DNA of 64,000 bases, taken from positions 2,418,001 through 2,482,000 of the forward strand of contig NC_014831.1 of the NCBI RefSeq assembly GCF_000184705.1, in the 5' to 3' direction. The notes beneath the pieces are model-generated. The model was not told the origin of the DNA, did not search any database, and saw only the letters and a list, made by a program, of their open reading frames with translations. The stretch is from Thermaerobacter marianensis DSM 12885 (lineage in GTDB: Bacteria; Bacillota; Sulfobacillia; Thermaerobacterales; Thermaerobacteraceae). Below are positions 60,384 to 64,000 of this stretch, piece by piece. The stretch's first letter is position 1. Every line of letters begins with the position of its first letter. The translations under genes and the position numbers were made by a program.

Positions 60384-61496
60384 TCAGGGCCGGTACCCTA
60401 CGAGCCACTGCAGGGCTGCGTCGGCCGTCCCGTCCGGTTCTAGCCCGAACCACCACTCCGCCGCGGCCACCGCTTTCTCCGTGGTACCGCCGTAGACGCC
60501 GTCGGCCACCCCGGGGTTGAACCCGGCGGCCCGCAGGGACAGCTGCAACAAGGCCACGTCCTGGCCGACAGCCCCCCGCCGGTAGACGGGCAGCTTGTAG
60601 TAGACCTCGGTGGTACCGGTGATCTTGACGGGCGTACCGACCTTGACCAGGTCGTCCAGGGTCAGGACGTCTTCGTTGAACATGCGGATGCAGCCCAGGC
60701 TGGCGTAGGTGCCGATGGAGCCGGGGTTGTTGGTGCCGTGAATCCCGTAGGAACCCCAGGGCGCACTCAGCCCAAACCAGCGGGCGCCGAACGGGCCGCC
60801 GGGCCAGTGGGCGATGTCCGTCACCCGCCACTCGCCCACAGGCGACGGCTCGCCGGGCCGGCCGGCCGCGATGGGGTAGGTCCTGACGGGCTGCCCGTTG
60901 CGGTAGACGGTGAGCTCCCGCTGGTCGATGTCGATGACGATGAGGACGTCTTCCGCCGCCGCGACGGCCGACCGCCCGCCCTGGAGGGCCAACCCCGCTA
61001 CGGCCCCCCACCAGCGGAGGAACCGCCAGTACGGGGTGCGGGCACCTTCCCGCTCGCCGCAAACGGGCCCCGCGCCCGCGGCGCCCCCACCGGCCTGGTA
61101 ACCTCCCACCCAGAGGACGGCGCCGGCCAGCACCAGGCACGCCAGCATGAGCCTGGCCAGGCGCAAACCGGGCAGGGGCGCCCGCCCGCCCGGGTCCGAG
61201 TGGGATGCCCCTCGTCCCCCTGGGGCCCCCACCGGTTCGACCGGCCCGGACGAACCGGCCCCGAAGGGCCACCGGCGCCCCCACCGTATCCGGGGCCCCG
61301 GTTCACCGCGCTCCGAGGCCCCGCGTCTTGGTGTGCCGGGCTTCGGAGCGGACACCCCGAACGCCGAACCTGTGAAGAACGGCTCTGCCCCGCGCTTCGG
61401 GCCCCCGGGCTCTCGTGTCCCGCGATCCGGTGCCGAGAGCCGTGGTGTGCTGCCACGTGCCCCCTGCCCGGATGTCCCGTGCCCCGGTGTATCCAT
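60384..61496 (-). CDS. L,D-transpeptidase (YkuD) with C-terminal peptidoglycan-binding domain
   Basis: A 370-residue cell-wall enzyme. A low-complexity cytoplasmic N-terminus (1-112) leads to one membrane helix LMLACLVLAGAVLWVGGYQ. The YkuD catalytic domain follows: IVIDIDQRELTVYRNGQPVR, TYPIAAGRPGEPSPVGEWRV, and the active-site HGTNNPGS through ASLGCIRM with catalytic Cys and His. A peptidoglycan-binding-like repeat with LQLSLRAAGFNPGVADGVYG is C-terminal. Such enzymes make 3-3 cross-links or attach proteins and are often spore-related in Firmicutes. ATG at 61496 follows GGGGGTGGGTG; internal starts nearer the helix are possible. Confidence 0.88.
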   Translation of the reverse strand: MDTPGHGTSGQGARGSTPRLSAPDRGTREPGGPKRGAEPFFTGSAFGVSAPKPGTPRRGASERGEPGPRIRWGRRWPFGAGSSGPVEPVGAPGGRGASHSDPGGRAPLPGLRLARLMLACLVLAGAVLWVGGYQAGGGAAGAGPVCGEREGARTPYWRFLRWWGAVAGLALQGGRSAVAAAEDVLIVIDIDQRELTVYRNGQPVRTYPIAAGRPGEPSPVGEWRVTDIAHWPGGPFGARWFGLSAPWGSYGIHGTNNPGSIGTYASLGCIRMFNEDVLTLDDLVKVGTPVKITGTTEVYYKLPVYRRGAVGQDVALLQLSLRAAGFNPGVADGVYGGTTEKAVAAAEWWFGLEPDGTADAALQWLVGYRP

Positions 61497-61884
61497 TCAC
61501 CCACCCCCGACACGGTCCGCGGATTGGGACCGGCCCAGGCTAGGCTATGCGGCCGGGGGGTGGGGTAGAAGATCGGCAGCAGCGGGCGGAAGGGGAGCAT
61601 ACAACCGGGGCAGCAGCCACGGGCGGGGAGCGGAATCGACCGGGAAGCGGCAGCGGGCCCCACCGCCGGGCCGCATCGCCCGGCGCGGCCGGCATGCTGT
61701 CGACCTCCGGTTACCCCGAAATCCCTGGCGGGTCGACAGCAGGTGGAAGACACACCCAAATGGCGTCGCCACGCGGTTTCTTGACCTTTGGCTTCCATGA
61801 TAACCCTTGCTTCCTGGATATGGCTCGACAGCAGGGGAGGAAACAAACCGTTGCAGGAAAAGGGTTCTCGGGGTCGAAGGTAGG
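61497..61884 (+). other. CRISPR leader region
   Basis: No supported gene in these 388 bases; the one long frame here runs on into the repeats. The last 120 bases before the first repeat are richer in A+T than the surroundings, as leaders are, with TTGACC near 61780 as the only promoter-like hexamer. A perfect 10-bp inverted repeat (61696-61740) and a repeated TCGACAGCAGG (61733-61743 and 61825-61835) lie inside. Confidence 0.55.
61696..61740. repeat. inverted repeat in the CRISPR leader
   Basis: GCTGTCGACC at 61696-61705 and GGTCGACAGC at 61731-61740 are perfect reverse complements, separated by 25 bases. The second arm begins a TCGACAGCAGG that recurs 92 bases downstream at 61825-61835. Confidence 0.8.
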
Positions 61885-63108
61885 GTTTGTAGAGTGCCTA
61901 TGAGGAATCGAAACCGACGCCCTGGTCGACGATTCGGGCATCGACTGGACAGTTTGTAGAGTGCCTATGAGGAATCGAAACTTCCAGTTCCCACCGCGAA
62001 GAGCGGCCCGCGCGAACGTTTGTAGAGTGCCTATGAGGAATCGAAACATGTTGTTCGCCGGGTCCTGGCCGGGCAGCGAGTAGGTTTGTAGAGTGCCTAT
62101 GAGGAATCGAAACGACCCGGCAGGGAGCGGCACCTGAAAACCGGCAATTTGTTTGTAGAGTGCCTATGAGGAATCGAAACGGGAGCCACCATGACGGCCG
62201 GGGCGGTCTGCCGGTCCGTTTGTAGAGTGCCTATGAGGAATTGAAACTATTTACGAATGGTCCAGCGGTATTTTTGGGCGATGGGTTTGTAGAGTGCCTA
62301 TGAGGAATCGAAACCAAGGAACCTGAAAGCCCTTCTAGTTCTCGTGCTACGTTTGTAGAGTGCCTATGAGGAATCGAAACACCGAGGCGGGTATCACGGA
62401 CCAGGACCTGCTGCCGTTTGTAGAGTGCCTATGAGGAATCGAAACCTGATCGTCGGCCACCGGCTCTCCGAGCGTGAGGCGGCCAGGTTTGTAGAGTGCC
62501 TATGAGGAATCGAAACGCGCCCATTGCGTAGATCCGGCGGCCGAACAGGTACGTTTGTAGAGTGCCTATGAGGAATCGAAACACCCCGGCACATGGCGCA
62601 ACCTGCAGGACGTGGTGCGTTTGTAGAGTGCCTATGAGGTATCGAAACAGGCGGCGCTTGGTCGCCCCGTCCGAGTCGACGAGGTTTGTAGAGTGCCTAT
62701 GAGGAATCGAAACATCTTCTACGTGGAGGACGAGACCAGCGCGGCGCCGGGTTTGTAGAGTGCCTATGAGGAATCGAAACGTCACCGTCACGGTGGACGT
62801 GGGCCAGGCCACCGAGTTTGTAGAGTGCCTATGAGGAATCGAAACTCAGCTGGACCGCCGGCGCTCATCCCCTCCGTCGCAGTTTGTAGAGTGCCTATGA
62901 GGAATCGAAACCTCCATCCCGGCCTGCGGCACGGCAATGCCAACTGGGTTTGTAGAGTGCCTATGAGGAATCGAAACATGTGGACGGCGTCCTAGCCGCT
63001 TCGGCTAGTAACGTTTGTAGAGTGCTTATGAGGAATCGAAACCCGCATTGTCATACGTCCATCGCAAGGCGCTGCGTCGTTTGTAGAGTGCCTATGAGGA
63101 ATCCAAAC
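61885..63108 (+). CRISPR. CRISPR array: 19 repeats, 18 spacers
   Basis: The 30-base repeat begins GTTTGTAGAG, continues TGCCTATGAG and ends GAATCGAAAC. Repeat starts: 61885, 61952, 62018, 62084, 62151, 62218, 62285, 62351, 62416, 62487, 62553, 62619, 62684, 62751, 62816, 62882, 62948, 63013, 63079. Spacers are 35-37 bases except spacer 9 (41). Single changes occur in repeat 6 (ATTG for ATCG), 12 (GGTATC), 18 (GCTTATG) and 19 (ATCCAAAC). The ...GAAAC 3' end predicts transcription on the plus strand with an ATCGAAAC crRNA handle, as in type I-B/III repeats. Variants and decay cluster at the right end, so the leader is on the left. No cas gene is in the window. Confidence 0.98.
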
Positions 63109-63144
63109 GCGGTTCAGCGGGGGCTGCAAAGCAGGACATGAACT

Positions 63145-63155
63145 GTTTGTGGAGT
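63145..63155 (+). repeat. decayed terminal CRISPR repeat
   Basis: GTTTGTGGAGT lies exactly 36 bases after repeat 19, one spacer length. It matches the first 11 bases of the repeat with one change; the remaining 19 bases do not match. Confidence 0.7.
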
Positions 63156-63313
63156 TCGTGTCGTCGCGGGCCGGGAGTGGGTCAGCCGCCGGATCCTGCG
63201 CGCCATCGAGGAAGCCGGCATGGAGTCGACGCGCCTGGGCGTGGGAAAGGTACCCGGACCCTGGAGCAGGCGGCCGCTTGAGAAAGCCCTCCCTTTACCG
63301 GTCTCGTCACGCC
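63156..63313. other. gap after the CRISPR array, possible gene remnant
   Basis: From about 63160 to 63230 the plus strand encodes VVAGREWVSRRILRAIEEAG followed by MEST, which has the look of a helical coding remnant but has no start and no family that I can name. It may be a fragment left beside the array, or chance in an open G+C-rich frame. Confidence 0.25.
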
Positions 63314-64000
63314 TTACGTCACCGCTTCCCCCGACGCCGCCTCCGGTGTCACCGGGTGCAAGAGCTTCTGCAGGTCTCCAAGCGCCTCCCGAAGAGCGCG
63401 AGCGCCCGCCTCGATGCACTCCGGTACCCGGTGCAGGTCCGTCAGTTGAACGTCCGGCAGGTCCGGCTGAAGCACCAGGTCGGCAAACCGCTCCAGCTTG
63501 AAGGCCGCCAGGTCCCGTGCCATGAGGTCGAAGGCCTGCCCGAGAAAGTCCAGCAGCCCCGCCGGTTCCCGGCGCCGGCGAGATGAGACGTCCACCGCCA
63601 GGACCACTCGCGCCCCCAGAGCGCGCGCCGCCTCGGCTGGCACCTTGTCCTTGACGGCGCCGTCCACCAGGATGTACGGCCCCAGCCGCTTGGGTTCGAA
63701 GATCCCGGGAATCGCAATGCTTGCCCTCACCGCCGCCGCCAACGTCCCCTTGTCCAGCACGATGGCCCCCGGCATGGCCCGCTGCACCCGTTCCTTGTAC
63801 ACCGGCGGGCAGAACACCGCCGCGCGACCCGACCGCACGTCGGCCGCCATGATGGCCACGGGCCGCTCCAGCTGCTCCAGCCGGGCGCCGCGCGTCCACA
63901 GGCCGAGGAGCCGTTCCAGCTTCTGCCCCTGGATCATCCCCTGGGGAACGGGCCGGCGCGGGCGCCACCGGAACCCCAGCACCTGGGCCAGCACGGCGAG
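63314..64000 (-). CDS. patatin-like phospholipase, C-terminal part (runs off right edge)
   Basis: About 228 residues of a minus-strand gene whose N-terminus lies outside the window. The catalytic Asp motif DGA is in GPYILVDGAVKDKVPAEAAR, preceded by VRASIAIPGIFEPKRLG, the usual patatin/RssA-NTE sequence; RPVAIMAADVRSGRAAVF and LGARVVLAVDVSSRRRREPA fit the same fold. The oxyanion hole and the nucleophile GxSxG would be upstream, beyond base 64000, so activity cannot be confirmed. Members are acyl hydrolases, some membrane-associated. The tail QLTDLHRVPECIEAGARALR is typical of the RssA group. Confidence 0.85.
   Translation of the reverse strand, partial: LAVLAQVLGFRWRPRRPVPQGMIQGQKLERLLGLWTRGARLEQLERPVAIMAADVRSGRAAVFCPPVYKERVQRAMPGAIVLDKGTLAAAVRASIAIPGIFEPKRLGPYILVDGAVKDKVPAEAARALGARVVLAVDVSSRRRREPAGLLDFLGQAFDLMARDLAAFKLERFADLVLQPDLPDVQLTDLHRVPECIEAGARALREALGDLQKLLHPVTPEAASGEAVT

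Follow-up and report, generated by a model that had tools for sequence, protein, structure and literature searches.

Near the right end of the window, a stretch of 64,000 nucleotides of the Thermaerobacter marianensis DSM 12885 chromosome, lies a CRISPR array with no cas genes beside it. The question it raises is which genes, if any, serve the array, and whether it can still be read or extended.

The Array and Its Boundaries

Within and around the array we distinguish the following features of the window:

60384..61496, minus strand: L,D-transpeptidase-like gene, the left flank, syntenic in the congeners G001 to G003
61695..61884, plus strand: leader of 190 nt, conserved by alignment with array leaders of the congeners G001 and G002
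61697..61739, no strand: inverted repeat CTGTCGACC...GGTCGACAG, situated at the leader's outer edge
61885..63108, plus strand: CRISPR array of 19 repeats of 30 nt and 18 spacers
61915..61951, plus strand: spacer 1, identical in 36 of 37 nt to a resident prophage (G000:C1:51553-51589)
63109..63144, plus strand: spacer-sized stretch of 36 nt after repeat 19, read directly from the sequence
63145..63160, plus strand: degenerate start of a 20th repeat, GTTTGTGGAGTTCGTG, read directly from the sequence
63161..63226, plus strand: relic of an IS1634-family transposase gene, 66 nt of its middle part, 82% identity
63314..64000, minus strand: patatin-like phospholipase gene, the right flank, syntenic in G001 to G003 and running off the window

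Recounting confirmed the 19 repeats and 18 spacers of the first-pass annotation at 61885-63108. The consensus repeat is GTTTGTAGAGTGCCTATGAGGAATCGAAAC, with its first copy at 61885-61914 and its last at 63079-63108, and the 18 spacers (35-41 nt) are all different; by the regularity of its repeats and the uniqueness of its spacers, this is a genuine CRISPR array. Fifteen of the 19 repeats are perfect, and R6, R12, R18, and R19 carry one change each, so that the variants noted earlier in repeats 18 and 19 stand, with R6 and R12 to be added to them. The genome is a single contig of 2,844,696 bp, in which we find 19 copies of the repeat at up to three mismatches, every one of them in the array, and hence no other array with this repeat; the reversed repeat pattern, run over the whole genome as a control, gave 0 matches. 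The I-C repeat of the genus is absent from this genome, and the repeat pattern has no match in viral contigs.

The plus-strand orientation proposed in the first-pass annotation is supported, because the leader is conserved in arrays of two congeners. This leader begins near 61695, which places the earlier start of 61497 about 200 bp too far left, and it is richer in AT than its surroundings, with GC dropping from 0.79 to 0.53. A search for promoter or terminator consensus sequences found none. The inverted repeat CTGTCGACC...GGTCGACAG opens all five leaders that we compared (61697-61739 in the window; L055 18528, L059 3166, L060 5758, and L062 6607), lying ~150-190 bp upstream of the first repeat with 9-12 bp per arm: 9 bp in the window and about 12 bp in the congeners. 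It may be a protein-binding site for transcription or acquisition, and none was seen upstream of cas6.

At the other end, the truncated copy reported one spacer length further on is indeed present, as a degenerate repeat start 36 nt past R19, and the decay of this end has a probable explanation. The degenerate repeat directly adjoins the transposase relic at 63161-63226, which resembles transposase genes elsewhere in the genome and in the congeners (IS1634 family, assigned by NF033559 with E 1e-127 for the G002 copy), and an old IS1634 insertion followed by a deletion is the likely cause of the truncation. The gene to the right is a phospholipase, as annotated (patatin-like, RssA-like, E 2e-17). 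Genome-wide searches found no cas1, cas2, cas6, or cas8b within the window, in agreement with the earlier view that no cas genes lie within 60 kb on the left of the array, and none right of it either, so that the complete operon directly right of 64000 that would have made the array ordinary was not found.

A Type I-B Effector Operon 590 kb Away

The first-pass annotation held that the array either depends on cas genes elsewhere or is an orphan, and it proposed a search for effector genes in the rest of the genome. That search located a compact five-gene operon, cas6-cas8b-cas7-cas5-cas3 (G000:C1:1881398-1889501, minus strand, by profile matches), on the same chromosome at a distance of 590 kb. 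None of its proteins is interrupted (Cas6 358 aa, Cas8b 699 aa, Cas7 313 aa, Cas5 255 aa, and Cas3 1038 aa). The best models for Cas8b (E 5e-242), Cas7, Cas5, and Cas6 are those of type I-B, and Cas3 matches Cas3b and retains GSGKT, DEPQ, TATMP, and QAAGRANR together with an HD pair. With the signature gene cas3, the subtype gene cas8b, and cas5, cas7, and cas6 in one operon, this is a type I-B effector set, and among four Thermaerobacter genomes it is the only apparently intact one. The first alternative of the annotation is thereby borne out, and the array is no orphan in the strict sense of having no compatible cas genes in its genome.

Immediately upstream of the operon lies a regulator-like gene that, from its N-terminus, we take for one of the WYL type. 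Across the 34 kb around the operon there is neither an array nor a relic of cas4, cas1, or cas2, and the repeat has no match there at up to 10 mismatches. Cas6, whose gene occupies 1888425-1889501, was detected by TIGR01877 (1888605-1889144), although PF10040 found nothing in the genome; one empty model is therefore not absence, and absences of Cas1 and Cas2 that rest on one model each carry some risk.

Kinship of Repeat and Leader

In the congener G002, an array near a homologous I-B operon has the repeat GTTTGTAGGGTACCTATGAGGGATCGAAAC, with three differences from the repeat studied here, and its leader aligns with that of the window; mobile elements now lie between that array and its operon, in which cas3 is cut off after ~300 residues beside a transposase. 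At the corresponding locus, G001 has an array with the same repeat, GTTTGTAGGGTACCTATGAGGGATCGAAAC, and the same leader as G002. Its I-B set is reduced to Cas6, with an I-C-like set in its place, and no I-B Cas8b was found in the G001 genome. G037, from another family of the same class, has 69 copies of GTTTATAGCCTACCTATGAGGAATTGAAAC (five differences) around a homologous operon. The repeat is thus of a type found with I-B genes, at three differences from the G002 and G001 arrays and five from that of G037. The repeats share one small hairpin that shuffled sequence forms equally well, and the evidence for pairing the array with the operon is therefore kinship of sequence, not structure. Judged by this kinship, the array and the I-B operon almost certainly work together.

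We further observed in G001 an I-B type Cas6 directly upstream of the I-C-like cas operon (L061:8175-15251), beside I-B-type arrays. An I-C-like operon occupies, in two congeners, the regulator locus that holds the I-B operon in the array genome.

Adaptation Genes

Genome-wide searches detected neither Cas1 (PF01867) nor Cas2 (PF09827), whereas the same searches were positive in G001, G003, and control genomes; in G002, Cas1 gave no match above threshold and Cas2 was absent. We thus find no adaptation module of cas1 and cas2, usually accompanied by cas4, which was sought near the operon only. Loci with effector genes only are still typed by those genes. Among the closest known systems are the I-B operons of the class-level relatives G024 and G043, cas6-cas8b-cas7-cas5-cas3-cas4-cas1-cas2, which have the same effector order and homologous proteins (Cas7 about 61% and Cas8b 36-45% identical to those of the array genome); G037 shares the repeat type. 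Unlike these operons, which run on from cas3 into cas4, cas1, and cas2, that of the array genome has no such genes after cas3, and its array lies 590 kb away. Because G024 and G043 have these genes, the absence of Cas1 and Cas2 here and in G002 looks like loss. The adaptation module has apparently been lost from the array genome, and the array can therefore probably be read and not extended. The earlier suggestion of recent activity finds no support, with Cas1 and Cas2 undetected and the internal repeats R6 and R12 mutated.

We rejected as a Cas1 candidate a 310-aa protein encoded beside the congeners' arrays (L055:15684-16616 in G002; L059:5527-6459 in G001), its match being below threshold and covering ~70 residues, and its match to DUF2325 equally weak. 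It is probably a chance neighbor, because a homologue (68% identical, L198:18374-19303) occurs in the array genome with no array nearby. A gene next to it, tried as a CARF protein, turned out to be saccharopine-dehydrogenase-like.

Spacers and a Resident Prophage

The comparison of the spacers with phage, plasmid, and host sequences that the first-pass annotation proposed gave matches at chance level only in phage and plasmid records, and further ones in a resident prophage of 43 kb, the same element being a separate viral contig in IMG/VR. Spacer 1 differs from its target, a weakly tail-fibre-like gene, by a single C to G change at position 13, which is synonymous (GTC to GTG). For spacers 9 (35/41) and 16 (28/36), the agreement with this prophage is poorer, so that three spacers point to one mobile element; several spacers of G001 and G002 also match the resident prophage, at 6-9 mismatches, and reversed spacers, used as a control, gave no matches to it.

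Protospacer 1 is preceded on its 5' side by GCGTTA. A T at position -2, proposed as a PAM from the six best prophage protospacers, was rejected, most of these being diverged matches in coding DNA, and a comparison of part of the G001 spacers with G003 for PAM evidence returned mobile-element-like matches only. Candidate explanations for toleration of the spacer 1 match are PAM failure, escape by mismatch, an anti-CRISPR, or silencing.

History of the Site

The L,D-transpeptidase and phospholipase genes occur in the same order in all three congeners, with no array between them. Relative to G001 and G002, the array genome has ~1.6 kb extra (61694-63317). On its left, this segment starts where the conserved leader does, its exact breakpoint being uncertain because identity near this edge is only ~72% overall. 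In G001 and G002, the large arrays are flanked by a saccharopine-dehydrogenase-like gene on one side and an ABC transporter gene on the other. The same interval of the array genome is free of the repeat and is occupied by different genes, which by eye look two-component and ApbE-like. With three congeners lacking an array here and two having a similar one at a site that is empty in the array genome, either units of leader plus array have moved or several ancestral arrays have been lost differentially. The comparison shows such units at differing chromosomal sites, away from the cas operon.

The oddest observation lies outside the window, in the G002 array near the I-B operon. Its five leader-proximal repeats (L060:5945-6247), with four spacers of 35-41 nt between them, are chimeras of CRISPR repeat (GTTTGTAGGGTACCTATGA) and the left end of an IS1634 element (CTCGGGTTTGAC), the fifth copy being the IS junction itself. 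From this arrangement, it appears that IS1634 entered the first repeat and that the resulting half-transposon repeat was afterwards copied four times in the course of spacer acquisition, an event for which a narrow search of the literature turned up no published case. Two G002 copies of the element (L056:1059-2923 and L060:6236-8101) share 99.95% identity across about 1865 bp and occupy the same repeat position in two different arrays. Each is flanked on both sides by TATGA, the pattern expected of a 5-bp target duplication. The paired insertions may reflect a preference of the element for the repeat as its target, or else its transfer through recombination.

Discussion

We consider it likely that this is a genuine type I-B array served in trans, a frozen memory whose right end was truncated where IS1634 probably once inserted. 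The observations behind this reading are the array, its leader, the uninterrupted effector operon, the lack of detectable Cas1 and Cas2, the kinship of repeat and leader, and the prophage match of spacer 1. Transcription would run rightward from the leader, Cas6 from the operon at 590 kb distance would cleave the transcript within its repeats, and the resulting crRNAs would load into a Cas8b-Cas7-Cas5 complex that recruits Cas3 for interference. Since no Cas1 or Cas2 was found, no new spacers would be added, acquisition having presumably been lost, and the array would be a frozen memory. Against service in trans stand the two CRISPRs listed in a table of the T. marianensis genome paper (PMC3035304), where our genome searches found one, and the expectation that a near-matching resident prophage would come under attack if the system were fully active and the PAM suitable.

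Toleration of that near-perfect match would suit a dead relic, in which array and cas operon persist but are silent or uncoupled and no crRNA-guided interference takes place, as would the undetected adaptation genes, the broken or missing I-B effector sets of the congeners, and the decayed right end of the array. All five effector genes are nevertheless uninterrupted with their motifs kept, 15 of the 19 repeats carry no change, and a leader can still be recognized; we regard a dead relic as rather unlikely. It is very unlikely that the effector-only system has been kept to control and not to destroy, with spacer 1 guiding the I-B complex to the tail-fibre-like gene of the prophage, and the mismatch or the PAM permitting binding and not cutting, such that the phage is held in check and the host spared.

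The intact leader and leader-side repeats, and a first spacer nearly matching a phage now resident, could also be read as continued acquisition by a Cas1-Cas2 pair that either has diverged beyond the reach of the models or is brought by a visiting element; as the models are negative here but positive in two congeners and the control genomes, this is extremely unlikely. There is next to no chance that the array serves a type I-C or type III effector in place of the I-B operon. Two congeners do carry an I-C-like operon at the regulator locus of the I-B operon, but the I-C repeat of the genus differs in sequence and is absent here, no RAMP-family protein was found in the genus, and the effector genes of this genome score as I-B.

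These findings fit what is known of isolated type I arrays: the case is ordinary and well resolved, of interest for its loss and its self-match, and presents no new kind of system. Isolated arrays and cas loci are not rare. In a survey of them, 12% of type I cas loci were isolated, array and cas locus of a genome likewise being separated by over 10 kb (PMC5294841); unlike in those cases, the partner operon can here be named by repeat and leader kinship, and genes for adaptation are also lacking. Self-targeting spacers nearly identical to integrated prophages are likewise known (reviewed in PMC6990116), the difference here being one synonymous mismatch at position 13. The locus offers a clear type I-B case in which the memory lies far from its effector and the recording machinery is apparently gone, and it would permit testing for how long such a frozen memory remains of use and by what means a resident prophage that is matched almost perfectly is tolerated.
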